A program made the translations under genes and the position numbers. DNA of 64,000 nt from Phytohabitans rumicis (GTDB lineage: Bacteria > Actinomycetota > Actinomycetes > Mycobacteriales > Micromonosporaceae). The notes below the pieces were generated by a model. It was not told the origin of the DNA and did not search any database. It saw only the letters and a list, made by a program, of their open reading frames with translations. Each line of letters begins with the position of its first letter. The stretch's first letter is position 1. This document shows positions 15,805 through 39,300 of the stretch, piece after piece. The DNA lies in NCBI RefSeq assembly GCF_011764445.1, contig NZ_BLPG01000001.1, forward strand, positions 7,705,001 to 7,769,000, read 5' to 3'.

Positions 15805-16345
15805 CCCCGCGATGGCGTCCGGTGGCACGGATGAGCTCCACCGTGTCGGATGTGAAATAGAGGGGCCCAAAGGGCATCTGCGGGATCTTGAACACGGCCG
15901 GTCCCGTCAGGAGCTCACCGCGGAACGTGGCCTTCTTGATGTCCATGATTCGCCCCGAGCTGAACCGGACAATGTCGGAGCGCTCCTCGTCGAGCGCGTC
16001 GACGACCCGGGTGACGTTGAGGACGACCAGGCCCGCGTCGGCGCACTCGAGCGGCAGCAGTTCGCCGTGGTCGGCGAGGATCGGGCCGACCTCGGCGATC
16101 GCCTCGTCCCGGAGGATGAGGACGTGGCTGCCCAACCACGGCAGGTCCGCGCGCCGCCGTGGCCCGCCCTCATCCGACCGCAGCAGGTACATCGGCACGG
16201 GAGACCAGGCGCCGGCGCGTGGTGTGCCGTCGAACCCGCCGAAGAGCAAGGCGTGCTTGCCATCGAGCGGCAGCGCCCACTCGAAGCCCTCCTCGACCTC
16301 CGGTTCGTAGACCTGGGGAGGGCTAGTACGGTTGGTGCTCAACAA
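15785..16345 (-). CDS. Imm11/DUF1629-like immunity protein
   Basis: A 186-residue cytosolic protein whose second half matches the Imm11 (DUF1629) pattern: LPLECADAGLVVLNVTRVVD, then an SGRIMDIKKATF segment, then PAVFKIPQ and GPLYFTSDTVELIRATG. No ATG or GTG fits; the start is TTG at 16345 (or 16342) behind an AGGGAGA ribosome site, and it overlaps the last 23 nt of the toxin gene, so the two are translated together. Position directly after a toxin with a nuclease tip is the standard place for the cognate immunity gene. Imm11 proteins are found beside many RHS toxins. That it neutralises this particular AHH nuclease is inferred. Confidence 0.8.
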   Translation of the reverse strand: MLSTNRTSPPQVYEPEVEEGFEWALPLDGKHALLFGGFDGTPRAGAWSPVPMYLLRSDEGGPRRRADLPWLGSHVLILRDEAIAEVGPILADHGELLPLECADAGLVVLNVTRVVDALDEERSDIVRFSSGRIMDIKKATFRGELLTGPAVFKIPQMPFGPLYFTSDTVELIRATGRHRGVTFRPA

Positions 16346-19300
16346 AGTCTCCCTGCAACAGCCCTGTCCTGATGGACTCTAGCGTTTCCAGCACCTCTTC
16401 CTTGCGACCGGTGGCGCCGGCGCGGAGGACCAGCTCGTTGACCTTGGTGTAGTACTTGTCGGGCAACGTGCGGTGGACCGTCGCGCCCGTCGGATTCGGC
16501 GACTTCGTGTGCGCCGGCAGGAATACGCCGTTCTCCGCCGCGTTGATGCTGATTCCGTATGCCTCCAGCACTTGCCGCGCCGGGTCCGCAATCGCCTTCT
16601 CGCCCGCCACGATGTGGTGCGCGTCGGTGCCCTCCGGGCGCTGCACGCCGGCATCCACGAGGTTCCTGCCGAGGACCTTGGAACTCGCCTTTTCGGGCTT
16701 CGGCGCGGTCGGCGGCCCGTTCCCCGACTTGGGTGCGCCGGCGGGCGCTGGCCCGGCGGGCGGGGCCGCGATGACCGAACCGGCGGTGCCCTCGCCGCCG
16801 CCCGTCGGCCGGTCGGGGGGCATCGACGTGGCGTGCAACATCGTCGCCACGCCGGAAGCCACGTCGATGGCGGCCTCGCCCATCGCGGCCCCCGAGACGG
16901 CCACTACCGGCACGCCGGCGGGGGCACCGGCCCCGGTCGCGGTGAGGGCCCCACCGCCGGCCGTCCCGACACCGCCGGCGATGAACTGGCCGACGCCGTA
17001 CGCGGCCTCACCGGCGCCGCGGAAGAACTCGAACGTCCGGCTGGGCGGGTCCAGCGACAGTGCGGCTCCGGCGATCGAGCCACCGGGTACGGCGGCGATC
17101 GCCACACCGGCGGTGAATCCGGCGACGGCCTCGCCCAGTGTCGAATCGCGGACCGCGTCGGCAACCTGCTCCACGGCCGCCTGCATGGTGTAGAACGCCC
17201 TCGGGTCCTGACCGGTCGGGTCCAGGTAGGCGACCGGGTTGTTCGCGGCGTACGCGTACGGCTGGAGCAGATCGGCGGCGGCCATCGTCGGGGCGGCGCC
17301 GCCACCGGGCGCGCCGGCCTCGGCCGCCCGCGCGATGAACGTGTCCGCGGGTGCCGCGCCCGCGTCCACCGCGAACAGTTTCGGGTCGACGGTGAGGAAC
17401 CTGCCCAGGACCGGGTCGTAGAGCCGTCCGTCCATGTCGATCAGGCCGAGGTCGGCGTCGTGGTCGTGCCCGGCGAAGCCGCGCTCACCGGTCGTGCGCC
17501 AGTTCGGGTCGAGGTTCGTGCCGAACGCCTCGAACCGTTGGCTGTTGTTGGGAATCGGGGTCGAGTTGGTAAATTCCAATGGCGAGCCGAGCCGGTCGGC
17601 GTGCGGGTAGTTGGTGAACCTGCTCTGGACCGCGCCGGCGACCTCGGTCTTCACGACCTGCGCGACGTTCTTGTCGCCGGCCTGTACGTAGTAGCGGTGC
17701 TCGATGCTGCCGCCGCCGGCCGCCTCGCGGCGCTCGTACAGTCCGGAGATGTACGTGGTCGTGGCGTTCGGGGCGCGGCGCTGCACCCGCTCTTCGGCGG
17801 CGTTGTACCGGAACGTGGTGGTGACCAGGTTCGCCCCGGTGCCCACGGCGACGGAGGTCGGCAGGTTCGCCGGCGACCACGTGATCGCCTGCCGGCCGCC
17901 GGCGACGCCGGGACCGACGCGGCCGACCTGGTTGCCGGCCAAGTCGTAGCTGTAGGCGTTCTGCCCGGCCGCGAAGGCGGCGTTGGGCAGGATGTCGGTC
18001 GCCGGACGGTAGTTGTACGCCCCGACGCCGCTCTTGGACGTGAAGCCGCCGGAGGCGTTGTAGGCGAACGACTCGACCACGTCACCGGGCAACGCGGGGT
18101 CGTTGCCTTGCAACAGCTGCGTCTGCGTCAGGCGGTTGAGAGTGTCGTAGGTGTAGTAACGGGAGCGGTTCGCGCGTACGACGTCGCGCATGTGTTTGAC
18201 GTTGCCGACCGCGTCGTAGCCGTAAAAGAGCTGCAGCACCCTGCCGGGACTGGATATCGCGGACGAGGACGCCAACCTTCCGCTCAACGGCTGGAAGCTC
18301 GACGTCGTCGTGGTGCCGTTGCGGAGCCGTTCCTCGCCGATGCGGTAGCCCTGGTTGTCGTCCACAAAGGTCCAGTACGGCGGGCTCGTGGTGCCGTCGC
18401 TGACGGTGGTGAGCAGGCCGCCGGCGTCGTACGAGTACGTCACAGCGAACGCCTCGCCGGCGGCGCTCGGGTACTCCACGCGTATGGTGCGGCCGAACTG
18501 GTCGTAGCCGTAGCCGAGGCGGTATGTGCGTCCGTCCACGACCTGCTCCGTCGCGGCGAGCAGGCCGCGGTTCGGAGCGCTCGCCGGCACCGCCTCGTAG
18601 CTGAGCCGGGTGATGTCGCCTTCCGCACTGCGCGCCTGCACGAGCTTGCCGATCGTGTTGGCCCCCGGCCCGTCGTAGGCCCAGGTCGCCGCGCCGCGCG
18701 GATCGGCACGCCTGGTCATCCGGCCGAGCTCGTCGTACGTGTACTGCGTCGCGATCCCGCGCGGGTCGTTGTGCGTGGCCACCTGACCGAACGCCGTCCA
18801 GGTGTACGCCTGCCGGCCCCCGTCGCGGGTCGTGACGGCGGTGGTGCGGCCCCACCGGTCGGTGTCGAACGTGGTGACGACGCCGCGCGGGTCCACGGCC
18901 CGGCGCGCCGCGCCGAACGGTCCATACTCGACCTGGGTGACCGAGCCGACCGGGTCCACGGTGGCCGCCAGCGCGTCGTTGACGTCCTTGACCTGCACAG
19001 TGCGCCGGTTCAGCGGGTCGGTGACCGCGACTGCTTCGACCGCCGAGGCGCGGACGACGGAGGTGAACGACGCCACCGACGGCGCCTCGTCGGGCCAGCC
19101 GTACCGCACGTTCGTGACGGCCACGTCGCCGGTGGCGTCTTCGTCCGGCCGGCTCACGGTGATGAGGCGGCCGAGCTGGTCGTACGTGTTTCGGATGACG
19201 CCCTGCGTGGTGTCGCCCGGCAAATGCGGGCGGGACACCGAGAGCGGGCGGCCGTCGTGGTCGAATGTGGACTCGGTGACCACCGTCGTGCCGGCGTACC

Positions 19301-22300
19301 CGTTCGCCCACGTCTCCACGGTCCGGCCGAGCGCGTCCTGGAACTCGGTCGAGGAGGCACCGCCCGCGATCTGTTGCGTGGTGCGGGTGCGGGCCCGCAG
19401 GTTCGCGCTCGTGTCCGTGTCGGCGCGGGCGTACGCGGTGACGGTGTCCCCGTTCGGCCCGCGCAGGCGGACCTGCCTGCCGAAGCCGTCGTACGCGGAC
19501 CGGGTGACGACGCCGTTCGGGTCGACGCGCACGAGCACCTTGCCGAGCTTGGTGTCGGTGACCATCGTCGTGACGTGACCCCTGGGGTTGACCTCCCGCA
19601 CCGGGAAGAGGGTCGCCATGTCGTACCCGGTCTGCGTCGTCCGCGTCGCCAGGCCCGGCGCGCTGACCTGCTGGCTGATCACGTGGCCGTACTCGTCGTG
19701 GACGCCGGTCTCGGTCATGGTGTACGCGGCGTCGTCCGGTTCCCGGATGGCCGTGAAGGGCAGACCGCGGTCGTTGTAGGTGAACGCGGTCGTGCGCACC
19801 TCGGTGTTGCCCTGGCGGATACTGGTGGCCTTGTGCCGCAGTCGCAGGCCGATCAGCCATTGATTGCGCCGGGCCGCGCTGGTGTCGTACCCGCTCTCTT
19901 CGACGGTTCGTTCGATCACCGTCCCGGAGCCGTTGCGCAGCACGGTGTCCGTGGACGTCGCGTTGCCGTTCGCGTCGTACAGCATCACCGTGTCCGACGA
20001 CATCACGCTCCGCCGGGTCCCCGTGGGCGCGGGCAGCATGTCCACACTCCTGGCCGCGCGCTCCTCCACGACGAACGGCACGGAATCCCCGGACAGCTTC
20101 ACCGAGTACCCGATCGGGCCTTGGCGCACCTGTTGCCCCACGGTCACCGCGGTGCCCAAGCCGTGCTGCACCGTCCCGGACGTGGCCAGCGCGTTGGTCA
20201 CCCGGCCGGCGTACGGGTACCAGTGCCGGATCGGCGAACCGGCCGTCGCGTCCACGTGCGTGGCGTTGTCGAAGTCGCGGAGGGCCGTCTCGACCAGGAC
20301 GCTGTTGGTCTCCCCGAACGTCCTGTCGAGACGCCGGGCGAAGCCCAGGTTCCCACGCCCGTACCAGGCGCTCCGGCCGTTCTGGTACCGGAACGTCTGC
20401 CATTTGACCCGGCGCAGCGTCTCCAATGGACTACCGGGTTGCCGCTCCGCCGCGCGGACCATGACGCTGGACACCAGCGGGCCGGCCCGGTTCAGGCACC
20501 AGGTCTGCGCCGATACGCAGCTGGTCGTGCGTTCGTAGACGCGTTCCCCCTGCGCGTCGCGGTGCGAATAGTCGAACAGGATGCTTTCGCCCAGGCCGTC
20601 GCGCGCGACCACGAGCAGGTTGCCTTTGGCGTGGGCACCCCACCGGATCGTCAGCTGGGCAGCCGTGTTGCCGGCCGCGTCGACCAGGCCCGGCGCGTCG
20701 GCCACCAGGATGAGGTCGCTGCTGCCGTCGCCGTCGACGTCGCCGCGCATCGGCAGCGCCCGCTCGGCCAGGCTCATCGTGCCGACCTCTTCGGGCCGGT
20801 ACGTGGAATTCTCCTGCGTCTTGTGGACGACCCAGCGCAGGCTCGCCGGCTGCCGCGGGTCACCGATCGGCACCAGCACGTCGTCGCGGCCGTCGTTGTT
20901 GTAGTCGAGGAACTGCGCGCGGGCGAAGCCGTACGCGCTGACCCGGTACCAGGTCCACGCCGCGTCGCCGATCAACGTGGGCGACCCGGACCCGGTGGCG
21001 AAGCCCTTGCCGGTGTTGACGTGCAGCCGTACCGGGTTGGCCAGGCTCCCGTCGTAGCGCAGGATGTCGTCCAGGCCGTCGCCGTTGACGTCCAACACGC
21101 GCAGCTGCCACTTCCGCGCGTACGTCGTGACCGTGACCTGGCCGCTGTCGTCGCCGGGGTCCGTGTTGGTCACGTCGCCCGCCCAGTACGGCGTAAGGTC
21201 GTAGATCTCCTCCGGGGCGGGCACCGAGGCGTCGATCGTCTCGTTGAACGTCAGCCCGGTGTCGACCCAGCGGGCGCCGCTCGCGTCGATCGACAGCGCC
21301 TTCCACGTCTGGGCCCACACGTACGTGTTCGCGGCGGGCGAGTTGACGAACGTCCACTGTCGCTTGAGTGCGTTGACCGCGCCGTCGCCGTCGACGTCGA
21401 CGAGCGTCGGTGCCTCGCACGGCTCCGGCGTGCCGCCGGCGAAGCCGGTCAGCGGCGACTGGCCCTGGTGGCCGTAGTTCGGCAACGCGCGGCCGGCGTC
21501 GAACCCAGCACCGGGACCGCGGTTGAGGTGCAGCAACAGGTCGGTCCGCCGGCACACCAGCACATCGGCGAGCGCGTCGCCGTTGAGGTCGGCCAGCCAG
21601 AACGGATCCGCGGGTCCGGTCGTCGGTATCACCGGGATGTGATCGCGGGTGAAGGTCGTGCCGGTGGACACGAGCACCTCGCCGTTCGTGTGGATGTCAC
21701 ACGTGCTGACCAGGTCGTCGCGGCCGTCGCCGTTGTAGTCCACGACGCTGTCCTGCGAGATGCACCAGAAGCTGAAGCCGAGGGAGGGCTGCGACCCGAG
21801 CCCGGTGTCCCGCACGGTGTACGGGCTGGCCCGGTTGCCGGTGGCAAGCGCGAGCTGGTACGTCCACGATCCGCTACAGCTGCTCAGCGCCGGGTCACAC
21901 GTGTACCGTGTCGTCGGTGCGGGATACAGGAGGTCGTCGAAGCCGTCGCCGTTCGCGTCGAGCACGATCGTACGACCGACCGCCTGGCTGCCCAGCCCGT
22001 TGCCGAACAGCAGCGGAACGACCGGCCCGTTCGTCGGCGTGGCCGAGAACCCCTGCGAGTTGTCGTACGTGAACGTGGTCGGCGGCTTGCACACCTCACC
22101 GCTCGCGTCGTCGACACACTCGCGCAGCCGCAGGAGCCGGCTGACGTCCGTGCGCGCGTCGTACTCGAACTTGTACCGGCGTACCACCGCACCGCCAACC
22201 ACCGTCTCGATCCGGTTGATCCGCCGCCACTCCAGGTCGCGCAGCCCGCGGTTGAACGACGACCACCCGTCGGCCCGGTCGTCGTACACGAATCGGATCA

Positions 22301-23162
22301 ACCGGTCGTGTGCCCGCGCGCCGGTCCCGGACGAGCGGTGACCGCCGAAGCGCACCTCCGACGGCGCGTACCGGGTACAGGTCAGCACCGGGGTTTGCGT
22401 ACACCGCTGCGTGTACACCATCTCCAGGTAGTTGCCGTTGCGGTCCTGCTCCTCCTTGACCGTCCACCGCCGCTTGATCCCGTCCACTGTGGTCACCGCG
22501 TCGGTGGCGAAGCCGTAGCGCAGGATCCGGCCGTCCTTGCGGCGTACCTCGAAGCCCTCCGGCCCGGCCGCGGCCCCACCCGGCCGGCTCAGCACGACGC
22601 GGGAGAAGGTGTCCACCTCGGTGCGGTACTCCGAACCGTCCGCGCCGTAGGTGCCCCGCACCATCACGAGCAGCTGCCCGTCGAGGCAGAACGCGTCCGC
22701 CCGCCCACCAGGGTCCTCGACCGGCCGCGCGTAGCCGTCCGACTGTGCCGAGGCCAACGCGCAGCGCTCGATCACGGAGAAGCCGGAGACCGCCCAACCC
22801 TCGCCGGCGATCCCGTCGCTGCTCCCGGACGTGTACGACAGCGCGATGCTCGGGGTCAGACCGGCGATCCCCGGCGGCGCCTCGATCGGCACCGTGTACG
22901 TGGAGTGGCCGTCGTCGGTGACGCCGTGCGTGCCGTCCAGCGCGCCCACCGCCGCGGTCGGCTCACGCGGCAGCGGGTCCGTCTCCGCGGCCGACGCCAG
23001 GCGAGGCAACCAGGCCAACGCGACGACCGTGAGCGACGCGGTGACCGCGAGCACGAGCCAGAGCGCGAACCACCGCCGGGTCCCGTCGGCGCGGACCCGC
23101 GCATGCCTCGGCCTCGACCGCCACGATCTATCCATCGACGCAGCATGCGCCGGCACATTCAT
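16323..23162 (-). CDS. RHS/SpvB-type polymorphic toxin with C-terminal AHH nuclease
   Basis: A 2279-residue protein. In order: a membrane segment or signal anchor (about 31-55); an SpvB-like N-terminal domain (YTVPIEAPPGIAGLTPSIAL); seven FG-GAP/VCBS-type calcium loops of the D-x-[ND]-x-DG form (for example DANGDGFDDLL, DYNGDGRDDLV, DVNGDGLDDIL); many YD repeats (YDQLGRLITV, YDELGRMTRR, YDAVGNVKHM); the RHS core GLIDMDGRLYDPVLGRFLTV; YAYAANNPVAYLDPTG; a Gly/Ala/Pro-rich pretoxin stretch; and a final AHH nuclease of about 100 residues (DAHHIVAGEK near 2181, then NGVFLPAH and HRTLPDKYY). The RHS shell is expected to encapsulate and deliver the nuclease. A single copy with one immunity gene; no further orphan tips are seen. 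Confidence 0.9.
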   Translation of the reverse strand: MNVPAHAASMDRSWRSRPRHARVRADGTRRWFALWLVLAVTASLTVVALAWLPRLASAAETDPLPREPTAAVGALDGTHGVTDDGHSTYTVPIEAPPGIAGLTPSIALSYTSGSSDGIAGEGWAVSGFSVIERCALASAQSDGYARPVEDPGGRADAFCLDGQLLVMVRGTYGADGSEYRTEVDTFSRVVLSRPGGAAAGPEGFEVRRKDGRILRYGFATDAVTTVDGIKRRWTVKEEQDRNGNYLEMVYTQRCTQTPVLTCTRYAPSEVRFGGHRSSGTGARAHDRLIRFVYDDRADGWSSFNRGLRDLEWRRINRIETVVGGAVVRRYKFEYDARTDVSRLLRLRECVDDASGEVCKPPTTFTYDNSQGFSATPTNGPVVPLLFGNGLGSQAVGRTIVLDANGDGFDDLLYPAPTTRYTCDPALSSCSGSWTYQLALATGNRASPYTVRDTGLGSQPSLGFSFWCISQDSVVDYNGDGRDDLVSTCDIHTNGEVLVSTGTTFTRDHIPVIPTTGPADPFWLADLNGDALADVLVCRRTDLLLHLNRGPGAGFDAGRALPNYGHQGQSPLTGFAGGTPEPCEAPTLVDVDGDGAVNALKRQWTFVNSPAANTYVWAQTWKALSIDASGARWVDTGLTFNETIDASVPAPEEIYDLTPYWAGDVTNTDPGDDSGQVTVTTYARKWQLRVLDVNGDGLDDILRYDGSLANPVRLHVNTGKGFATGSGSPTLIGDAAWTWYRVSAYGFARAQFLDYNNDGRDDVLVPIGDPRQPASLRWVVHKTQENSTYRPEEVGTMSLAERALPMRGDVDGDGSSDLILVADAPGLVDAAGNTAAQLTIRWGAHAKGNLLVVARDGLGESILFDYSHRDAQGERVYERTTSCVSAQTWCLNRAGPLVSSVMVRAAERQPGSPLETLRRVKWQTFRYQNGRSAWYGRGNLGFARRLDRTFGETNSVLVETALRDFDNATHVDATAGSPIRHWYPYAGRVTNALATSGTVQHGLGTAVTVGQQVRQGPIGYSVKLSGDSVPFVVEERAARSVDMLPAPTGTRRSVMSSDTVMLYDANGNATSTDTVLRNGSGTVIERTVEESGYDTSAARRNQWLIGLRLRHKATSIRQGNTEVRTTAFTYNDRGLPFTAIREPDDAAYTMTETGVHDEYGHVISQQVSAPGLATRTTQTGYDMATLFPVREVNPRGHVTTMVTDTKLGKVLVRVDPNGVVTRSAYDGFGRQVRLRGPNGDTVTAYARADTDTSANLRARTRTTQQIAGGASSTEFQDALGRTVETWANGYAGTTVVTESTFDHDGRPLSVSRPHLPGDTTQGVIRNTYDQLGRLITVSRPDEDATGDVAVTNVRYGWPDEAPSVASFTSVVRASAVEAVAVTDPLNRRTVQVKDVNDALAATVDPVGSVTQVEYGPFGAARRAVDPRGVVTTFDTDRWGRTTAVTTRDGGRQAYTWTAFGQVATHNDPRGIATQYTYDELGRMTRRADPRGAATWAYDGPGANTIGKLVQARSAEGDITRLSYEAVPASAPNRGLLAATEQVVDGRTYRLGYGYDQFGRTIRVEYPSAAGEAFAVTYSYDAGGLLTTVSDGTTSPPYWTFVDDNQGYRIGEERLRNGTTTTSSFQPLSGRLASSSAISSPGRVLQLFYGYDAVGNVKHMRDVVRANRSRYYTYDTLNRLTQTQLLQGNDPALPGDVVESFAYNASGGFTSKSGVGAYNYRPATDILPNAAFAAGQNAYSYDLAGNQVGRVGPGVAGGRQAITWSPANLPTSVAVGTGANLVTTTFRYNAAEERVQRRAPNATTTYISGLYERREAAGGGSIEHRYYVQAGDKNVAQVVKTEVAGAVQSRFTNYPHADRLGSPLEFTNSTPIPNNSQRFEAFGTNLDPNWRTTGERGFAGHDHDADLGLIDMDGRLYDPVLGRFLTVDPKLFAVDAGAAPADTFIARAAEAGAPGGGAAPTMAAADLLQPYAYAANNPVAYLDPTGQDPRAFYTMQAAVEQVADAVRDSTLGEAVAGFTAGVAIAAVPGGSIAGAALSLDPPSRTFEFFRGAGEAAYGVGQFIAGGVGTAGGGALTATGAGAPAGVPVVAVSGAAMGEAAIDVASGVATMLHATSMPPDRPTGGGEGTAGSVIAAPPAGPAPAGAPKSGNGPPTAPKPEKASSKVLGRNLVDAGVQRPEGTDAHHIVAGEKAIADPARQVLEAYGISINAAENGVFLPAHTKSPNPTGATVHRTLPDKYYTKVNELVLRAGATGRKEEVLETLESIRTGLLQGDFVEHQPY

Positions 23163-24852: not shown

Positions 24853-26004
24853 TCACGGCACCGTCGCCGGGACGTTGCGGTCGACCTCGTCGCCGACACC
24901 GAGCTGGCCGTAGTGGTTTTGACCCCAGCACTGCAGCGTGCCGGTCAACCTGATGCCGCAGGTGTGGTCGTCGCCGACGGAGATGACCGACCAGCCGGCC
25001 TCATCGAGCAGCCGGCGCGGTGCGTTGCGGTTCGTGTTGTCACCGATGCCGAGCTGGCCGTCCCCGTTGTAGCCCCAGCAGAATCGGGTGCCGTTGGTGT
25101 ATAGCCCGCACGTGGAGGCGTCGTACCAGGTGTTGTCGCGGTGACCACCGGCATCCACGCTGGACCAGTTGCTGGTCGAGCCGACCCGGGTCGGTACGTT
25201 GGTCGAGGTGGTGCTGAGGGTACCGATGCCCAGCTCACCGCTGCGGTTGGCGCCCCAGCAGTAGAGCCGGTGAGCGGTCGAGACGCCGCAGGTGTGCCCG
25301 GCGGAGGTGTCGATGTCGAGCCAGTCGCCGGTGCTGGAGATCGGGGCGGGCGACCACTGGTCGTCGACGTCCCCCATGCCGAGCTCGCTGTGGTAGTTCG
25401 AGCCCCAGCAGTGCGCGGTGCCGGACGTGTTGATGGCGCAGGTGGCGAAGTCGCCTGCCGACACGACCGACCAGCCCGAACTCACCAGGCGCGGTGAGGT
25501 CCACTCGGTCTCCGTGCCGAGGCCCAGGGAGCCGGAGCGGCCGTCGCCCCAGCAGTAGAGCTGAGTGGTGGTGGCGATGGCGCACGTGTGGGAGCCACCG
25601 GCGGAGATCGCCACCATGGTGCGGGCGATGGCGACGCTGCGCGGTGTCAGGTAGGTGACCTTGTCGTTTGTGCCAAGCTGGCCGTAGAAGTTGCTGCCCC
25701 AGCAGTACGCGGTGCCGCCGGTGGTCAGCGCGCAAGCGTGGACGCCTCCGACGCTCACCGACGCCCACAGGACGTTCGGCGTCGTGACCTGCACCGGAAC
25801 GTCCTCGTCGTAGATGAGGACGGCGTAGCCGCCCCAGCACCACAGGGTGTTGTCCGTCTTGATGCCGCAGGTGAGGCTTTGGCCCGCGCTGACGGATATC
25901 CACGAAGACGCGGCGCTCGCGGGTGTGGTGATGGCGACGGCGCCCACGGCGGCGGCGAGCACCGCGACGACCGCGCCGACGCGCAATCGAGCCTTGGAAG
26001 TCAT
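24853..26004 (-). CDS. Secreted seven-repeat RCC1 beta-propeller with paired cysteines
   Basis: A 383-residue protein with a Sec signal peptide (cleavage near TTPASAASS, residue 32) and seven consecutive RCC1 repeats of about 50 residues, each with the form VSAG-x-HTCGI-x-LYCWG-x-GQLG. Seven repeats make one closed propeller. Every repeat keeps two cysteines about 10 residues apart (C-G/A-I ... C-W-G), which could form a disulfide within each blade. Repeat 6 carries an insert (RDNTWYDAS). The ribosome site AGGAGGA precedes the ATG. Bacterial RCC1 proteins act as adhesins or lectin-like binders; no catalytic motif is seen and the role here is unknown. Confidence 0.88.
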   Translation of the reverse strand: MTSKARLRVGAVVAVLAAAVGAVAITTPASAASSWISVSAGQSLTCGIKTDNTLWCWGGYAVLIYDEDVPVQVTTPNVLWASVSVGGVHACALTTGGTAYCWGSNFYGQLGTNDKVTYLTPRSVAIARTMVAISAGGSHTCAIATTTQLYCWGDGRSGSLGLGTETEWTSPRLVSSGWSVVSAGDFATCAINTSGTAHCWGSNYHSELGMGDVDDQWSPAPISSTGDWLDIDTSAGHTCGVSTAHRLYCWGANRSGELGIGTLSTTSTNVPTRVGSTSNWSSVDAGGHRDNTWYDASTCGLYTNGTRFCWGYNGDGQLGIGDNTNRNAPRRLLDEAGWSVISVGDDHTCGIRLTGTLQCWGQNHYGQLGVGDEVDRNVPATVP

Positions 26005-26094: not shown

Positions 26095-26673
26095 ATGTCG
26101 TACCTGTCATTGGGGTTGATGGCGACGCTGTGGTGCACGTTCGCCGCGTCCGCGTGGAGCAAGCTGCGCAGCCGTGCCGCCCAGAAGGCGTTCGCGGAGT
26201 CGCTGCGCCCGCTGCCGTTCGTACCGGCTGGCCTGGTGCACCGGGCGGCGGCGGCGACCACCATGGCGGAGGCCGGCGTCGTACTCGGCCTGGGCCTGGC
26301 CGTCGTGGCCGTGGCCGGCGGGTGGTCACCGGCGCGGCCGCTCGCGACGGTGATGCTCGCCCTGACCGGCGGCCTGCTGGCGGTGTTCACCGCGGGTGTG
26401 GCGCTCGCCGTGCGCCGCGACACCGGCGCGCGGTGCGCGTGCTTCGGCGCGGCGGAGCAGCCGTTGGGCGCCCGCCACCTGGTCCGAAACGGCCTGCTGC
26501 TGGCGGCGGTCGCGGTCGCGGTGCTGGGCATCGCCGCGGCCCGGGTGCAGCCGCTCGGGCTGGCCGGCGTGGCGGTGGCGTTGCCGGCCGGGGCGGTCGG
26601 CGCGCTGGTGCTGATCCGCCTGGACGACCTGATCTATCTGTTCACGCCGCGCCCGGTCCGCGGATCACCGTAG
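26095..26673 (+). CDS. MauE/DoxX-like redox membrane protein
   Basis: A 192-residue inner-membrane protein with four or more helices and the motif ARCACFGA (near residues 112-119), the cysteine pair of the MauE family. In methylotrophs MauE works with the thioredoxin-like MauD to form the disulfides of the methylamine dehydrogenase small subunit. Here a MauD-like protein (30428) and a six-cysteine peptide (30134) lie a few kb downstream, so a matching disulfide-forming role is likely. A TACGGT -10 box 8 nt before the ATG suggests a leaderless transcript. Its stop is only 1 nt from the regulator start, so the two form an operon. Confidence 0.8.
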   Translation: MSYLSLGLMATLWCTFAASAWSKLRSRAAQKAFAESLRPLPFVPAGLVHRAAAATTMAEAGVVLGLGLAVVAVAGGWSPARPLATVMLALTGGLLAVFTAGVALAVRRDTGARCACFGAAEQPLGARHLVRNGLLLAAVAVAVLGIAAARVQPLGLAGVAVALPAGAVGALVLIRLDDLIYLFTPRPVRGSP

Positions 26674-26674
26674 C

Positions 26675-29472
26675 GTGCCCGATGTGGAGTTGCGGCTGCT
26701 CGGGCCGGTAGAAGTCCGATCCGAGACCGGCGTGCTGATCCCACTGCGGCGGCGCCAGGAACGGCTCGCGCTGGCGGTGTTGCTGTTGGAGCCCGGCCGG
26801 GCGGTCCCCGTCGACCGCCTGGTCGACCTGCTCTGGAACCAGAAGCCGCCGCCGATGGCTCGGGCGGCGCTGCAGACCGTGATGTCGCACATCCGGACCG
26901 CGCTACGGTCGGCGACCGACGGTGCCGCCGACGAGTCGGTGCGGCTGCTGGCCCGGGGCGGGGCTACCTGCTGCAGGTCCGGCCGGAGTGCGTGGACCTG
27001 CACCGGTTCAACCGCCTCGTGGACGAGGCGCGCGCCGTTCAGGATCCCTCCGCGCGCTCCGCGCGGCTGGCCTCGGCGCTTGACCTGTGGCGAGGGCCGG
27101 CGCTCGGGGACGCGGCGACGGGCGACGCGCGCGAACGGTTGTGCAGTGAGCTGGAGGAGTCGCGATTCGCGGCGATCTCCGACCGGATCGACGCGGAGCT
27201 CGACGCCGGGCGGCACGCGGACGTGGTCGCCGAACTGTCCAGCCTCACCATCGAGCACCCGTTGCGGGAACGGCTGCACGGCCAGCTGATGATGGCCCTG
27301 TACCGGTGCGGCCGGCGCGCCGACGCCCTCGATGCCTTCCGCCGAGCTCGCCAGCTGCTCGTCACCGAGCTCGGCCTGGAACCGGGTCCGCAGCTGCGCG
27401 CGCTGGAGGCGTCCATCATCGCCGACACCGCCCGGACCGAGGACCTGCTCCCCGTGGGTACGCGGGCGCGCGTCGTGCCGGCCCAACTCCCGCCCGATCT
27501 GGCCAGTTTCGCCGGTCGTTCCGAGGAACTGCGCCGACTCGACGCGCTGCTGGCCGAGAATGGCAGCGCGACCGCACCCTCGATCTGCCTGGTCACCGGG
27601 ACGGCCGGGGTGGGTAAGACGACGCTGGCGGTGCGTTGGGCGCAGCGGGCCCGCGATCGTTTTCCGGACGGCCAGATGTACCTGAACCTGCGCGGCTTCG
27701 ATCCGGTCGACCCGCCGGCCGGCCCGAGCGAAACGCTGCCGGTACTGCTGCAGACACTGCAGGTGCCCGCGGAGCGGATCCCGGCCACGCTGGAGGCCCA
27801 GGTCGCCTCCTACCGCGGCCTCTTGGCCGGCCGGCGCATGTTGATCATCTTGGACAACGTCCGCGACGCGGACCAGGTGCGGCCGTTGCTGCCCGGGGCG
27901 CCCGGTTGTGCCGTCGTGATAACCAGCCGCAACCAACTCGCCAGCTTGCTGGTCGTCGACGGTGCCCGGTTGCTGCCGCTGGACCTGCTGTCCGCGGACG
28001 AGGCCCGCGAGCTGCTGGCCCACCGTCTCGGTGCCGAACGCGTCGCCGCCGAGGCCGGCGCGGTCGACGACATCATCGCCAAGTGCGCGCGACTGCCGTT
28101 GGCGTTGGCGATCGTGGCGGCCCGCGCGGCGACGCACCCGGCGTTCGCCCTCGCCGCGCTCGTCGGTGCGTCACACGATCCGCGCGTCAGCCTGGACACC
28201 CTCGACGGTGGCGACCAGGCCACCCGGGTACGCGCCGTCTTCTCCTGGTCCTACCAATCACTGAGCCACGGCGCGGCGCGGCTCTTCCGGCTGCTCGGCC
28301 TGCACCCCGGGCCCGACATCGCGGCGCCCGCCGCGGCGAGCCTCGCCGGCACGCCGATCGGGCCGGCGCGCCTGCTGCTGGACGAACTGGCCCGAGCGCA
28401 TCTGGTCAGCGAGAACAGCCCCGGCCGGTACGGTTTCCACGACCTTCTGCGGGCGTATGCCGCGGAGCTCGCCCATACCCATGACCACGGCACCGAACGC
28501 CACGCGGCGCTGCACCGGCTGTTCGACCACTACCTGCACACCGCCCACGCGGCGCATCGACTGCTGACCCCGCATCGAGACCCGGTCGCGGTCGGCGTAC
28601 CTGTGCCGGAGGTCGCCACGGAGCCTCTCACCGACGACGTACAGGCGCTTGCCTGGTTCGTCGCTGAGCGCGCCGTCCTGGTCGCCGTCGTGGCGCAGGC
28701 CGCCAAGGCAGGCTTCGACACCCACTCCTGGCAACTGGCCTGGGCGCTCACGGAGTTCTTCGCCCGGCAGGGCCACTGGCACGAGTGGGCTGCCACGCAC
28801 CGCACCGCTCTGCAAGCCATCCATGGCCAGACCGACCACCTTGGACAGGCCCACACCCATCGGGGCCTCGCCATCGCGTACGCGCGGCTGAGCCGGCACG
28901 ACGACGCGTTCACACACTTCAACCGGGCCCTTGAGCTGTTCACCGAGCTCGACGACCGGACCAGCCAGGGCCATACCCACCTTGGGGTGGCATGGCTGTT
29001 CGACCGCCAGGGCCGCCGTCCGCAGGCACTCGATCACGCGATCCAGGCCCTCGCCCTGTACCGCGAGGCAGGCAACGCGGCAGGACAGGCGAACGCCTTG
29101 AACGCCGTCGGCTGGTACCACGCCCAACTGGGCAACTACGAACAGACTCTGGTCCACTGTGAACCGGCCATCGCGCTGCACCGGGACTCCCGCGACCGCA
29201 GAGGCGAGGCCAGCACCTGGGACAGCCTCGGGTACGCCCACCGCCATCTCGGCCACCACGAACAGGCCACCGCCTGCGGTCGAAACGCCGTGGAGCTGTA
29301 CCGCGAGATCGGCGACCGGTACAACGAAGCCGACACGCTCATCCGCCTCGGCGACACCCGGCACGCGGTGGGGGACCACCACACCGCTCGGGAGCACTGG
29401 CGCCGTGCCCTGACCATCCTGCACGAACTCGGCCACCCGGACGCCGGCGAAGCCCGAGCGAGGCTGGGCTAG
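26675..29472 (+). CDS. AfsR/SARP-type regulator with NB-ARC and TPR domains (apparent 1-nt deletion)
   Basis: About 932 residues. In order: an OmpR-like winged helix (VELRLLGPVEVRSETG, residues 4-95), the BTAD helical domain (to about 260), an NB-ARC ATPase with P-loop VTGTAGVGKTTLAV and a LLIILDNV-type Walker B equivalent, and a C-terminal run of TPRs (LGQAHTHRGLAIAYARLSRH and repeats). The architecture matches AfsR-class activators of secondary metabolism. The frame breaks at the GGGG run 26960-26963: after LLARGG the protein continues in another frame as GYLLQVRPECVDLHRFN, and one extra G restores it. GTG 26675 directly follows the mauE-like stop. It is the obvious regulator of the peptide locus downstream. 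Confidence 0.88.
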
Positions 29473-29478
29473 CCGTAC

Positions 29479-29934
29479 TCACAGGGGGCGCCCGCCGAGC
29501 CGGCGTACCGCCACGCCGAGGAGCCGAGCGGACTCGAAGAGCCCACGCTGCCGCGAGTCGACACCGTCCGGGTTGTCCCCGAAGACCACCAGCGAGCCGG
29601 CCGGCACCCGATCGACCCCCTCGACCGGGACATCATCGGGCACCGGGTCACCCGCGACCGCGACGACCCGTTTGATATTCCACCGCGGGCCAACCGGGCC
29701 ACCGGGCCCGGTACCGGCGGATGCGTCCGCGGGCGGTTCCAGGACCACGACGTCGCCCGGACGGACCTCGGTCGCCGATCGACGGCGTACCACCACCCGG
29801 TCGCCGTCGACGAGGGTCGGCGCCATGCTCACGCCCTCCACCGTGACCACGACATACCGGCCGCGGACCGAACGCACGCCCAATGCGACCGCCAACCCGA
29901 CAACGACCAGCACTCCCACCAACCACCCTGACAT
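29479..29934 (-). CDS. S26-family signal peptidase-like protein
   Basis: A 151-residue membrane protein with one N-terminal helix (WLVGVLVVVGLAVALGV). It carries the type I signal-peptidase serine box (GVSMAPTL), the lysine box (WNIKRVVAVAGDP) and a GDNPDGVDSRQ segment, so the Ser/Lys catalytic dyad is present. It is shorter than housekeeping LepB. It is convergent with the regulator (6-bp gap) and divergent from the small peptide. The peptide contains an AKA-D site after its leader, which such an enzyme could cut; this pairing is inference. Confidence 0.85.
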   Translation of the reverse strand: MSGWLVGVLVVVGLAVALGVRSVRGRYVVVTVEGVSMAPTLVDGDRVVVRRRSATEVRPGDVVVLEPPADASAGTGPGGPVGPRWNIKRVVAVAGDPVPDDVPVEGVDRVPAGSLVVFGDNPDGVDSRQRGLFESARLLGVAVRRLGGRPL

Positions 29935-29956
29935 CGCAGCGATCCTAGGGCGACGT

Positions 29957-30017
29957 GTTGATCAGGGTGTGGCTCGGGCGTGTTGCGGTGTGTCGGGGGA
30001 GCCAGTCCCTGATCAAC
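29957..30017. repeat. Long hairpin upstream of the peptide gene
   Basis: GTTGATCAGGGTGTGGCTC (29957-29975) pairs with GAGCCAGTCCCTGATCAAC (29999-30017): 19-bp arms with two adjacent mismatches and a 23-nt loop. It lies between the S26-like gene and the peptide, about 117 bp before the peptide ATG. It could be a regulatory RNA structure, a terminator for the minus-strand side or a dispersed palindromic element. Confidence 0.8.
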
Positions 30018-30133
30018 GCGATCTTGGAGGTTTGGCTCGCGGACCTGGGGCTCTCCTCGGTCAACCGTTTGACAAGGATTTGCCAAGTCGAGGGTGCCAA
30101 GCTCCGGTCCGATCTACACGGAGGAGGACCTCA

Positions 30134-30322
30134 ATGACAGATAGCTTGCTTCGGTTCGCTGACCGGATGTTGGAGCGGCTGGTGCCGAAGGCCACCGCGA
30201 AGGCCGACTCCACCTACTGGGTCACCTGCTACTGCTCGGGTGGCACCAAGTGGATCAAGCGGTGTCACAACATCAACGGCACGACGAGTTGTGAGCCGTG
30301 CATCCTGGGCGGCGGCTGCTGA
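30134..30322 (+). CDS. Six-cysteine small peptide, candidate exported disulfide-rich precursor
   Basis: A 62-residue peptide with a very strong ribosome site (GGAGGAGG, 6 nt before the ATG). Residues 1-24 are an amphipathic, positively charged helix ending in PKATAKA with no hydrophobic core, so it is not a standard Sec signal. Residues 25-62 form a compact core: cysteines at 32, 34, 44, 53, 56 and 62 (three possible disulfides), aromatic residues YW at 28-29 and a Gly-rich C-terminal end (LGGGC). The CYCSGG segment recalls the CDCSGG stretch of the methylamine dehydrogenase small subunit. The next genes encode a MauD-like thioredoxin and an ABC exporter. I do not recognise the family; function is unknown. 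Confidence 0.85.
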   Translation: MTDSLLRFADRMLERLVPKATAKADSTYWVTCYCSGGTKWIKRCHNINGTTSCEPCILGGGC

Positions 30323-30335
30323 GCTGACGCTCTGC

Positions 30336-30388
30336 CCCGGGTCGGGTGGCTGACCGGCGCGCCCCCCGCGCAGGCCACCCGACCCGGG
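30336..30388 (+). terminator. Strong hairpin between the peptide and export genes
   Basis: CCCGGGTCGGGTGGC (30336-30350) pairs perfectly with GCCACCCGACCCGGG (30374-30388), a 15-bp stem with a 23-nt loop and no U-tract. It begins 13 bp after the peptide stop and ends 39 bp before the thioredoxin gene. Such a partial terminator would make peptide mRNA abundant and let only some transcripts continue into the folding and export genes. It could also protect the 3' end of the peptide mRNA. Confidence 0.8.
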
Positions 30389-30427
30389 CGTGCCTCCGCC
30401 GCTCGCCCCGACACAGTTGAGGTACCC

Positions 30428-30943
30428 ATGATGGCTTTTCTGGCCGCGGCCGTGGTGCTGCTCGCCGCGATCTGTCTGCTCAACCTGCTGCTCATCTTCG
30501 CGGTGCTGCGCCGGCTGCGGGAGCACACCGACGAACTGGACCGGCTGCGGTCGCGACCGGCCGATCCGGCGGCCGAGGAGGCGGGCGCGCTGATCGGGCG
30601 TAGCCTGTCCGACCTGGTGACCGCGACCGGCGACCGGCCCGAGCTGGTGGGCTTCTTCGACGCGGGTTGTTCGTCCTGCCACGAGCTGGCGCCGGACTTC
30701 GCGGTCGCCTCCCGGCGGGCTCCGAGCGTCGCGGTCGTCACCGGCACGGGGCAAGGGGTCGACGAGTTGGTCGCCCTGCTGGCGGGCGGTCCGACCGTGC
30801 TGCTGGGCAAGCGGGCCACCGACGTGTCGGCCAGCGTGGGCATCCGGGCGTACCCCACCTTCGTGCGGGTCGACGCCGAAGGCACCGTACTGCACGCGCA
30901 ACTGACCACAGTGGATGGCCTGATGGCGACGGCGCCGGCGTGA
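30428..30943 (+). CDS. MauD/TlpA-like membrane-anchored thioredoxin
   Basis: A 171-residue protein with one N-terminal helix (MAFLAAAVVLLAAICLLNLL), a coiled-coil-like charged segment, and an extracytoplasmic thioredoxin fold with the active-site motif GCSSCHE (Cys81 and Cys84) and the cis-proline region AYPTFVRVD. This layout is that of MauD and TlpA proteins, which make or reshuffle disulfides outside the membrane. A GAGG ribosome site precedes the first ATG. The stop overlaps the ABC exporter start by 4 nt (GTGA). Proposed client: the six-cysteine peptide just upstream. Confidence 0.87.
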   Translation: MMAFLAAAVVLLAAICLLNLLLIFAVLRRLREHTDELDRLRSRPADPAAEEAGALIGRSLSDLVTATGDRPELVGFFDAGCSSCHELAPDFAVASRRAPSVAVVTGTGQGVDELVALLAGGPTVLLGKRATDVSASVGIRAYPTFVRVDAEGTVLHAQLTTVDGLMATAPA

Positions 30944-32784
30944 CACCGCCGGTCGGCCCGCCGTCACCCGACGCGCGGCGGCTGATCCGGCACGCCGGGA
31001 CGGCATGGTGGCTCTGCTGGTGCGCCGGGCGCGGCCAGACCGTTGGACACCTGGTGGTCGCCGGCCTGGCCGGTCTCCTGCCAGCCGGCACGACCTGGTT
31101 GACGAAGCTGCTCGTGGACGGGCTCACCGCCGGACGGTCCGGGGCCGTGCTGGGCTGGGCGGCCGGGCTGGCCGCGATCGGGCTGGCCGTCGCCGCGCTG
31201 CCGCACCTGACCGGCTATCTGCACGCCGAACTGAGCCGCCGGCTCGACCGGCTGATGCAGGACGAGCTGTACACGGCGGTCAACCGGTTCCAGGGTCTGT
31301 CGCGGTTCGAGAACCCGCACTTCCTCGACCAGCTCCGGATGGCCACGCAGGCGACGGGCGGCTCGCTGGGACCGGTGACGACCGGGTTGTTCGACAGCGT
31401 ACGCAACGTCATCACGCTGGTGAGCCTGCTGGCGACGCTGTCCGTCCTGAGCCCGGTGATGGCGGCCGTGGTCACCGCGGCGGCGGTGCCGGTGTTGATC
31501 GCCCGGGTGAGACTGTCCAAGCGGCGGGTGACGGTGCTCGCCGGGCTCTCCGCGGCCGGGCGGCGGCAGCTCTTCTACTCCTCGCTCATCACCGATGTCC
31601 AGGCCGCCAAGGAGATCCGCCTCTTCGGGCTGGGCGACTTCCTCCGGCAGCGGCTGCTCGGGCAGCTGGACATCATCCAAGCCGGCGAGCGCCGGCTCGA
31701 TCGCCGGGAGGCCCTGACCCAGGCGCTCCTCGCACTCTTCTCGGCGGGGGTCGCCGGCCTCGGGCTCGTCTGGGCGGCCCGATCCGCCACGGCGGGCCAC
31801 CTGAGCGTGGGTGACGTGATGGCCTTCGTCGCCGCCGTGGCCGGCGCACAGGCTGCCCTGGTTGGGCTGGTCGACAACCTGGCCACCGCACACCAGGCCC
31901 TGCTGCTGTTCGGCTATCACGCGGCGGTGACGGCGCTGCCGGACGACCTCCCGCCGCCTCGGGCGGCGGCCCTGGCACCCCTGCGCCGCGGGATCGAGCT
32001 ACGCGACGTGTGGTTCCGCTACGACGAGAGCCTTCCGTGGGTGCTGCGCGGGGTCGATCTGACCATCCCGTACGGCCGATCGGTCGCGCTGGTCGGGCTC
32101 AACGGCGCCGGCAAGAGCACCCTTGTCAAGCTGTTGTGCCGGTTCTACGACCCGACCCGTGGAGTGATCTTGTGGGACGGCGTGGACATCCGGCACGTCC
32201 CCGTCGGCGAGCTCCGCCGCCGGATGGGCGTCCTCTTCCAGGACTTCATGAGCTACGACCTGACGGCGGCCGAGAACGTCGGGATCGGTGAACTGGACGC
32301 GCTGCAGGACCGCTCCCGGATCACCACCGCCGCTCGGATGGCCCACGCCGACACCATCGTCGAGGCCCTGCCGCGCGGGTACGACACGCTGCTGAGCCGG
32401 ATCTTCTTCGGCCAACCGGACGAGGACGATCCGGCGGCGGGAGTAACCCTGTCCGGCGGGCAGTGGCAGCGGCTGGCCCTGGCCCGCACGCTCCTGCGCG
32501 ACGGCCGTGACCTGCTCATCCTCGACGAACCCAGCTCCGGCCTGGACGCGCAGGCCGAACATCGGGTACACCGCCGGCTGCAGGAGCACCGGGCGGGGCG
32601 TACCAGCCTGCTGATCTCGCACCGGCTCGGGGCGGTCCGGGACGCCGACCTGATCGTGGTCCTGGGCGGCGGGCTGATCCTCGAACAGGGCACGCACGAC
32701 GAGCTGATCGCCGCCGGTGGCGAGTACGCCCAACTGTTCACCGTCCAGGCCAGCGGCTACCGGGTCCACCCCGTACCCCTGTGA
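30940..32784 (+). CDS. ABC exporter, fused membrane and ATPase domains
   Basis: A 614-residue half-transporter with an exporter-type six-helix membrane domain (about 1-330) and an ATPase domain with Walker A GLNGAGKST, signature LSGGQWQRLALART, Walker B LLILDEPSSGLD and switch histidine (LLISHRLG). No N-terminal C39 peptidase domain is present, so leader removal, if any, needs another protease. A homodimer is expected. The membrane part resembles ABC exporters next to RiPP and lanthipeptide genes. GTG 30940 overlaps the thioredoxin stop. It likely exports the peptide encoded at 30134. Confidence 0.88.
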   Translation: MTPPVGPPSPDARRLIRHAGTAWWLCWCAGRGQTVGHLVVAGLAGLLPAGTTWLTKLLVDGLTAGRSGAVLGWAAGLAAIGLAVAALPHLTGYLHAELSRRLDRLMQDELYTAVNRFQGLSRFENPHFLDQLRMATQATGGSLGPVTTGLFDSVRNVITLVSLLATLSVLSPVMAAVVTAAAVPVLIARVRLSKRRVTVLAGLSAAGRRQLFYSSLITDVQAAKEIRLFGLGDFLRQRLLGQLDIIQAGERRLDRREALTQALLALFSAGVAGLGLVWAARSATAGHLSVGDVMAFVAAVAGAQAALVGLVDNLATAHQALLLFGYHAAVTALPDDLPPPRAAALAPLRRGIELRDVWFRYDESLPWVLRGVDLTIPYGRSVALVGLNGAGKSTLVKLLCRFYDPTRGVILWDGVDIRHVPVGELRRRMGVLFQDFMSYDLTAAENVGIGELDALQDRSRITTAARMAHADTIVEALPRGYDTLLSRIFFGQPDEDDPAAGVTLSGGQWQRLALARTLLRDGRDLLILDEPSSGLDAQAEHRVHRRLQEHRAGRTSLLISHRLGAVRDADLIVVLGGGLILEQGTHDELIAAGGEYAQLFTVQASGYRVHPVPL

Positions 32785-38571: not shown

Positions 38572-39300
38572 TCAATCAACAAGATTTGGTGCATACCGGG
38601 ACAGGAGGGAGCGCAGCCCGACGCCCGGCTCGATGCCCAGATCGCGGCGGACCAGGCGCTCGTACCGGCGGTACTGCCGCAGCGCCTCGTGCACGTTGCG
38701 CTGGCGCAGGTGCAGCTCGACCATGAGCTGCTGTGCGCTCTCCCGGAGCGGGTCGATCTCGGTGACCTGGAGCAGGTACGGCAGCGCCTCCGCCGGTCGC
38801 CCGGCGGTGAGCAGTCGCTCCGCCACCGACTCGAACGCCTGTACGGTCAGTAGCCGGATCCGCTCCCGGGCGTCCTCCAGCCACTCCTCGTCCCAGCCGG
38901 GCAGCAGCTCGCGGCCACTGCCTCGCGGCGGCGGTGGACGGTCGCCGGCGCTGGCGACCGTCTGGGTCGCCCAGTCGGTCACCTGCTGCACGTCCACCGC
39001 GACCAGCTCCGAGATGGCCAGCGTCTCCCCGCCGACGAGGACGAACTCGTCGGCGGCGCGATGCAACCGCCACAGCGCCGTACGCAGGTCGGAGCTGGCG
39101 CGCGACTGCGGGACATCCGGCCAGAGCGCGCCGGAGACCTGCTGCCGGCTGGCCGCGGAGTGGATGGCCAGGAAGGCGAGCACGCGGGCGGCACTGCGGG
39201 GGAGCGTTACGGGGTGCTCGCCGCGCCGCGCGCGGAACGGACCGAGCAGGTGCAACGACAACTGCGCGGCCAGCCCGGTCACCCCCCGATGTCGGTGCAC
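38572..39300 (-). CDS. SARP-family transcriptional activator
   Basis: A 242-residue protein of the short SARP class: an OmpR-like winged helix (LSLHLLGPFRARRGEHPVTL, LWPDVPQSRASSDLRTALWR) and the BTAD helical domain (ESVAERLLTAGRPAEALPYL, HLRQRNVHEALRQYRRYERL). No ATPase or TPR part is attached. The start is GTG at 39300, or GTG at 39282 six codons later. The direct repeats immediately downstream, ahead of the RhiA-like operon, are a natural target. Other targets elsewhere are possible. Confidence 0.9.
   Translation of the reverse strand: MHRHRGVTGLAAQLSLHLLGPFRARRGEHPVTLPRSAARVLAFLAIHSAASRQQVSGALWPDVPQSRASSDLRTALWRLHRAADEFVLVGGETLAISELVAVDVQQVTDWATQTVASAGDRPPPPRGSGRELLPGWDEEWLEDARERIRLLTVQAFESVAERLLTAGRPAEALPYLLQVTEIDPLRESAQQLMVELHLRQRNVHEALRQYRRYERLVRRDLGIEPGVGLRSLLSRYAPNLVD

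Follow-up and report, generated by a model that had tools for sequence, protein, structure and literature searches.

A widespread actinobacterial gene cassette, present in Phytohabitans rumicis, that likely makes and exports disulfide-bonded peptides

Closest described systems

Candidate gene clusters for ribosomally synthesized and post-translationally modified peptides (RiPPs) that contain mauE were described for Streptomyces in the decRiPPter study of 2020 (PMC7794033), which lists three such families, one of them also with mauD. Here we report a related gene cassette from the 10.7 Mb genome (G000) of Phytohabitans rumicis, a member of the family Micromonosporaceae. It lies at positions 26,095-32,784 of the analysed window, a stretch of 64,000 nucleotides covering positions 7705001-7769000 of contig NZ_BLPG01000001.1, and consists of a gene for a 62-residue peptide with six cysteines and genes for a MauE-like membrane protein, a thioredoxin-like protein, an S26 peptidase, an ABC exporter and an AfsR-type regulator. 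A preliminary description of this DNA had placed six genes here, and all six are present. Judged from sequence comparison, the cassette is widespread in actinobacteria and likely makes and exports disulfide-bonded peptides.

The decRiPPter mauE families resemble the cassette in being actinobacterial putative RiPP clusters with cysteine-rich precursors, and the authors infer a role of mauE and mauD in precursor modification. They differ in that the precursors have at least 8 cysteines and that Streptomyces was the group mined; in the main text of PMC7794033 the term 's26' has 0 occurrences, and its passages on these families do not mention a shared leader, topology or multi-copy peptides. The decRiPPter families are likely identical with the cassette peptides. 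Among the literature matches listed this is the one paper naming mauE in candidate RiPP clusters, and a shared leader, topology and peptide expansion were not found described in those matches. The preliminary description had spoken of a candidate new system, a claim to be narrowed in view of the families listed in 2020; the contribution made here is that a previously predicted class is made concrete, widened and given features not found described. Calling the role of MauD and MauE established was too strong, as the relevant passages of PMC7794033 have MauE 'speculated' to form disulfides and the function of MauD unclear.

Two further systems concern removal of the leader. Nickel superoxide dismutase (SodN), according to passages of PMC3919588, is processed by its cognate peptidase SodX and binds nickel at an N-terminal hook. 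Like the cassette peptides, it carries a short leader without a Sec-type hydrophobic core and with P-x3-[AV]-x-A before a cysteine-bearing mature end; it differs in being one conserved enzyme, and SodX has no clear anchor in most rows examined and falls in a clade separate from the cassette S26. In the LPP RiPPs of Bacillota, the passages on LppS in PMC13381572 (2026) report that this signal-peptidase-I-like protein removes a RiPP leader, as shown by gene deletion, cell-free and E. coli assays, which parallels what we propose for the cassette; the difference is that LppS needs a RiPP recognition element (RRE) protein and that the product is phosphorylated.

Laterosporulins, which are defensin-like bacteriocins (Protein Data Bank, PDB, entries 4ozk, 6lwy and 6lwz), were also listed among the closest known systems. 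Sublancin and the glycocins share with the cassette the clustering of a small cysteine-rich peptide, an ABC exporter and thiol-disulfide enzymes. They have double-glycine leaders and a C39 peptidase-exporter, whereas a double glycine stands near the cleavage site in 1 of 114 cassette leaders and the Pfam matches of the window exporter at E≤0.1 include no C39 domain, in agreement with its earlier description as an exporter lacking a peptidase domain. On the same two grounds, a class II bacteriocin with a double-glycine leader was rejected.

Peptides and machinery across genomes

The peptide gene is not a chance open reading frame, because relatives keep the six cysteines and the nonsynonymous divergence (dN) is below the synonymous divergence (dS), which bears out the gene as first described. 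All six cysteines are kept in five relatives, whose identity to the window peptide is 84% (L003), 76% (P0010 and P0011), 78% (P0012, 51 amino acids) and 53% (P0013), and they are invariant in 21/21 members of the CxC subgroup. Across the whole peptide dN was below dS in all 6 close-relative pairs compared; the pair of window and L003 is the weakest (dN 0.098, dS 0.149, ratio 0.66), and the other pairs have ratios of 0 to about 0.39.

With the window peptide as lone query, 10 of 101 related genomes matched at E≤0.01, some more than once, and the matched peptides combine a common leader, (L)xDRxLxRLVPxxxAxA, with very different cysteine-rich cores. Peptide profiles matched in 15/296 genomes class-wide (E≤0.001) and, at E≤1e-4, in 27/199 genomes of the genus of G277, presumed to be Streptomyces, and in 87/250 genomes and 26/44 genera of the window's own family. 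Pooled, with shared genomes counted once, the profile searches give at least 126 genomes; these counts probably underestimate the true numbers, as scoring was limited to 21, 30 and 24 candidates per genome in the class-wide, G277-genus and window-family searches, respectively.

The window peptide has no significant relative in Pfam, NCBIfam or PDB. Its AlphaFold model is uncertain in the leader and shows a core of four strands, the latter with a predicted local distance difference test score (pLDDT) of 70 to 90 by block, and gave no convincing fold match. For the core cut at the predicted site, the calculated monoisotopic mass is 4106.73 with three disulfides and 4112.78 in reduced form. The knottin spacing C-C-CC-C-C fits 7/103 cores. 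The bacterial cis-defensin pattern CX(2,18)CX(3)CX(2,12)CX(4,17)CXC, as stated in a passage of PMC11561630, fits 0/103 in its cysteine-strict form. Being a ribosomal precursor with leader and core, encoded beside predicted maturation genes, the peptide is a putative RiPP precursor, its modification and leader removal being predicted.

The cores are hypervariable, including their cysteine framework, and mostly hold 4, 6, 8 or 10 cysteines. The number is even in 101/107 cores and, after clustering, in 79/85 at 60% identity and 57/62 at 45% identity (p 1.5e-12), while for Ser, Thr, Gly, Tyr, Arg and Ala about half of the cores have an even count. The patterns used to make the core lists required at least 3 or at least 4 cysteines, with no bias to even over odd. 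The leaders contain 0 cysteines in 1377 residues. An even number is expected if all cysteines are paired, because full disulfide pairing predicts it and thioethers do not, and the core cysteines probably form disulfides. Cysteine conservation had been suggested as a check on the preliminary description; it is seen as invariance in the close subgroup and as parity family-wide.

Hidden Markov models for MauE, thioredoxin, S26, ABC and AfsR proteins were used to count genes within 6 kb of the peptide in four sets of loci. Set 1 comprised 20 loci holding 21 of the 24 non-own matches of the window-peptide search; the 19 with a pattern peptide had thioredoxin in 8, S26 in 7, ABC in 6, AfsR in 4 and MauE in 0. 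Set 2 started from the thioredoxin, which gave 29 matches in total; leaving aside the window itself, eight in set 1 and one weak unfetched match, 18 loci were fetched from 19 matches. A leader-type cysteine-rich peptide is carried by 16 of these 18, recognised by pattern in 13 and by eye in 3 (L046, L052 and L060), that of L043 with its 4 cysteines being the least typical; the 13 pattern-peptide loci had ABC in 10, S26 in 9, AfsR in 7 and MauE in 5. Set 3, found by peptide profile alone, covered 26 of the 39 non-own class-wide profile matches in 20 loci, 13 mostly weaker matches being left out. Among its 19 loci with a pattern peptide MauE, thioredoxin and S26 occur in 18 each, ABC in 16 and AfsR in 14; the twentieth, L080, has all five machinery genes and a peptide read by eye. 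Set 4 held 20 further loci, mostly strong matches chosen by the analyst from the G277-genus and window-family searches, with S26 in 20, thioredoxin and ABC in 19 each, MauE in 17 and AfsR in 15, one locus being cut by a contig end. Genome-wide densities in 10 set 1 genomes are 0.72 (MauE) and 0.33 (thioredoxin) matches per Mb, from which fewer than 0.2 neighbours of either kind are expected by chance in sets 3 and 4. As controls, the peptide pattern gave 2 matches in 316 kb of reversed set 2 DNA and 16 matches in 53 control loci; these fell in 12 loci, all fetched for cassette-type S26, with none in the LepB or SodX control loci. Homologous peptides with conserved cysteines thus stand beside the same genes elsewhere, which supports the earlier proposal that these components cooperate on a secreted, disulfide-rich peptide.

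Neighbouring genes were compared over sets 3 and 4 (40 loci in total) with our own gene caller and BLAST clusters. Besides the cassette families and peptides only an FtsX permease recurs (7/40 loci), and no other modifying enzyme is common to the loci, since any other family occurs in at most 3/40; this comparison, in which RREs were not searched by model, gave no recurrent extra partner. The FtsX-type permease, at L076:5826-8684 and in six more of these loci, could be a self-protection or immunity pump. A complete contiguous cassette is present on Streptomyces atratus plasmid NZ_CP108285.1 (L187), with genes for a BTAD regulator, a 73-residue peptide labelled 'hypothetical protein', MauE, a thioredoxin, an ABC exporter and S26; it adjoins an integrase gene, hinting at mobility. 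All five machinery genes are likewise found in a Nonomuraea gerenzanensis record, with two peptides, and on an S. nigrescens plasmid, where the pattern detected no peptide. The loci L061, L069, L048, L027 and L186 each hold two or three precursor genes, some of them arranged head to tail, whose leaders are similar and whose cores have diverged.

In several genomes the peptides outnumber the exporters. Peptide matches at E≤1e-4 number 47 in G012 and 30 in G031, and each of the best 30 loci among these 77 matches shows a leader-plus-core peptide, some loci sharing one; with at most 24 scored per genome, there are at least 10 in G009, 16 in G601 and 19 in G594. Cassette-type exporters are separated by score, at least 457 bits versus at most 327 bits for the other ABC proteins listed, and the window exporter scores 1336 bits against itself versus at most 262 bits for the other ABC proteins of G000 listed. 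There is 1 such exporter in each of G012, G009, G601 and G000, 2 in G031 and as many as 19 in G594, whose genus appears to be Virgisporangium. The machinery of G012 is split, with an exporter and S26 at L131, a second S26 and two peptides at L132, a thioredoxin and regulator at L049 and, at L060, a weaker thioredoxin next to a peptide. Where many peptides meet few exporters, a single machinery set would have to act in trans on many precursors, unless most of the precursors go unused; we infer the former.

Leader processing, topology and rival explanations

The leader ends in P-x3-[AV]-x-A in 60/61 peptides, and by reading the leaders have no Sec-type hydrophobic core; an alignment of leaders, another check put forward earlier, yielded a conserved P-x3-A-x-A across the family. 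SodN was found in 20 of the 22 cassette-related genomes examined, with P-x3-[AV]-x-A ahead of HCDLPCG in 20/20 leaders and an S26-type gene adjoining sodN in 17/20 loci. With a matrix derived from the peptides, four SodN leaders score 11.7-19.8 and the best of 629 unrelated N-termini 6.0, the single higher background row (L060) being itself a family peptide; the median SodN leader ranks in the top 1.6%, and the lowest-scoring SodN leaders do not stand out. The peptide leader resembles that of SodN and would likewise be removed by an S26 peptidase, the predicted cut being at A-x-A. Tree building placed the cassette S26, SodX and LepB proteins in three separate groups (support 96/80, 100/95 and 99/96), from few columns and with bootstrap values not settled. 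Assignment of the cassette S26 to LepB was rejected for its separate clade and inverted anchor charges, and assignment to SodX for its separate clade.

Lys and Arg are richer after the anchor than before it in 64/65 thioredoxins and 54/59 S26 proteins; the LepB controls have the opposite charge pattern (13/13), and the CxC side of MauE is the more positive one in 39/39. This distribution suggests cytoplasmic active sites for thioredoxin, S26 and MauE, on the other side of the membrane from those of ordinary signal peptidases. With three active sites inside, the peptide would be folded and clipped inside and then exported.

Under this model the precursor with its cysteine-free leader would be made in the cytosol and docked at the membrane by that leader. 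The membrane thioredoxin would oxidise the core, and MauE would re-oxidise the thioredoxin, passing electrons into the membrane. The dedicated S26 peptidase would cut after A-x-A, much as SodX clips nickel superoxide dismutase, and the dedicated ABC exporter would release a peptide already folded and clipped. Gene co-location, the leader motif, even cysteine numbers, intact catalytic residues and peptides outnumbering exporters are observed, and it is from these that we infer the catalytic steps, their side and their order. The likeliest role of the product would be that of a secreted antagonistic peptide between microbes, because the hypervariable cores have multiplied, in contrast to an unchanging leader and machinery.

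The complete scheme is put forward tentatively: an inward-facing disulfide machine with an inverted S26, a nickel-superoxide-dismutase-style leader and folded export, one such machine serving in some genomes about 30 to 50 scattered, hypervariable, venom-like peptides. Several points weigh against the cassette model as a whole. The charge rule is a prediction, with controls that lack Gram-negative mau proteins. MauE is found within 6 kb in 40/71 loci overall (0/19, 5/13, 18/19 and 17/20 by set) and, because it is missing there in 31/71, may come from elsewhere or be dispensable. Neither thioredoxin, S26 nor same-type exporter lies within about 9.5 kb on each side of 11/19 set 1 peptides, all 11 in the many-peptide genomes G009, G012 or G031, and the closest locus relative, Virgisporangium L003, keeps regulator and peptide only (10 kb each side). 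No recognisable peptide was seen near the cassette thioredoxins of L049 and L050, the latter despite the presence of MauE, ABC and S26. Strong likeness to the peptide leader is found in 4/20 SodN leaders and is weak in many others, the tree separates the cassette S26 from SodX, and even cysteine numbers would fit some metal sites too.

Type I signal peptidases work on the outer side of the membrane, as do most TlpA/ResA proteins, and disulfides are usually formed outside the cytoplasm. The same cassette could be arranged on these conventional sides, with a reduced precursor exported first and then oxidised and trimmed outside by thioredoxin, MauE and S26; the anchor charges of thioredoxin and S26, opposed to those of every LepB control, and the positive CxC side of MauE make this rather unlikely. 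Chance neighbourhood, or maturation of methylamine dehydrogenase, is scarcely credible: it could draw on the MauE label and on the likeness of CYCSGG to a segment cited in the preliminary description, but co-location is far above chance, and the link then made to the small subunit of methylamine dehydrogenase finds no support, as PF02975 matched none of 33 family peptides at E≤1 and none of 10 genomes in a search without a positive control.

Two other explanations keep the cassette together and change the chemistry. The peptides might bind metal, like metallothioneins or a nickel hook, with the redox pair keeping thiols reduced for loading. The parity of the cysteines suits some metal sites, and SodN with its similar leader is such a nickel protein (hook described in PMC3919588); this explanation is nevertheless improbable given the hypervariable cysteine framework and the recurrence of MauE, a membrane partner that would suit oxidation better than reduction at the cytoplasmic face. 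Thioether or other enzymatic modification as in lanthipeptides, with incidental disulfides, is more improbable still. The layout with leader and core, exporter, protease and SARP-type regulator is RiPP-like, but beyond the redox pair no modifying enzyme family is common to the loci of sets 3 and 4, and cysteine parity would be unexpected if cysteines paired with Ser or Thr.

Features of the locus and significance

Table 1. Features of the cassette in the window.
Feature	Position	Strand	Remarks
MauE/DoxX-like membrane protein	26095..26673	+	PF07291, E 1.2e-15
AfsR/SARP-type regulator (BTAD, NB-ARC and TPR parts)	26675..29472	+	Frame change near 26,960
S26 peptidase, short, membrane-anchored, divergent	29479..29934	-	PF10502, E 2.2e-17; Ser36, Lys88
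Inverted repeat, 22 nt, 86% complementary	29954..30020	.	Between the divergent S26 and peptide genes
Precursor peptide gene, 62 aa, six Cys	30134..30322	+	
Predicted leader, 24 aa, Cys-free, amphipathic, ending P-x3-A-x-A	30134..30205	+	Cleavage point predicted
Predicted core, 38 aa, six Cys, plus stop codon	30206..30322	+	
Strong RNA hairpin separating the peptide gene from the thioredoxin gene	30323..30427	+	Minimum free energy (MFE) -57.2 kcal/mol, z -3.0
Thioredoxin-like protein, membrane-anchored	30428..30943	+	CSSC; transmembrane segment, then RRLR
ABC exporter, membrane and ATPase domains	30940..32784	+	PF00664, PF00005

The features of the cassette are summarised in Table 1. The MauE model predicted with AlphaFold2 has a mean pLDDT of 94. 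The CxC-F-G motif of the protein (C114, C116) lies between long helices 3 and 4. Residues K23, E59, C114, C116, G118, R131 and L135 are invariant in a 39-row alignment, and in the homologue alignment the two CxC cysteines are kept in 28/28 and 27/28. The catalytic Ser and Lys of S26 are invariant in 39/39 homologues, as are the CxxC and cis-Pro of the thioredoxin in 47/47. The Pfam Thioredoxin score of the window protein is 16.4 bits, under the cut-off of 23.5 bits. Among the NCBIfam matches of this protein and 10 relatives there is no MauD model, the content of the library for MauD being unchecked; the relatives gave weak ResA/StoA matches in two and DsbE in one. In the earlier label MauD/TlpA-like, the thioredoxin fold with its motif and cis-Pro stands and the MauD part is unsupported; the label is a fold-level statement only. 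The start of the ABC exporter gene lies within the last codons of the thioredoxin gene.

The assignment of the regulator to the AfsR family was also correct, except that it is not one open frame. Its N-terminal part is in the frame of 26675-27289 and the remainder in 26992-29472; in the relative L003 the regulator is one uninterrupted frame, differing by a single-base insertion or deletion near 26,960. The break may be real damage or a sequencing or assembly error. Both arms of the 22-nt inverted repeat carry GTTGATCAGGG, and one more near copy is found in the window at 46969. For the hairpin, 0/200 shuffles reach an equally low MFE, and it is a possible attenuator.

Elsewhere in the window, an RCC1-repeat protein with a likely signal peptide (24853-26004, minus strand) directly adjoins the cassette. 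The protein encoded at 16323-23135 (minus strand) is very large; it combines RHS, FG-GAP, TcdB-middle-like and SpvB-like parts with an AHH nuclease domain at its C terminus and looks like a polymorphic RHS-type toxin, and a second BTAD/SARP-type regulator is encoded at 38572-39282 (minus strand).

With the cassette described, scattered 'hypothetical protein' genes can be grouped into a single class that is recognised by its leader and by its machinery. Should the peptides prove to be stably folded miniproteins, the class would be a large unexplored set of natural disulfide-rich peptides that come with their own genes for folding, of use in discovery and in the production of such peptides. If the inside-facing topology is true, it would break the usual rule that disulfides are made outside the cytoplasm and would give MauE a testable biochemical role.

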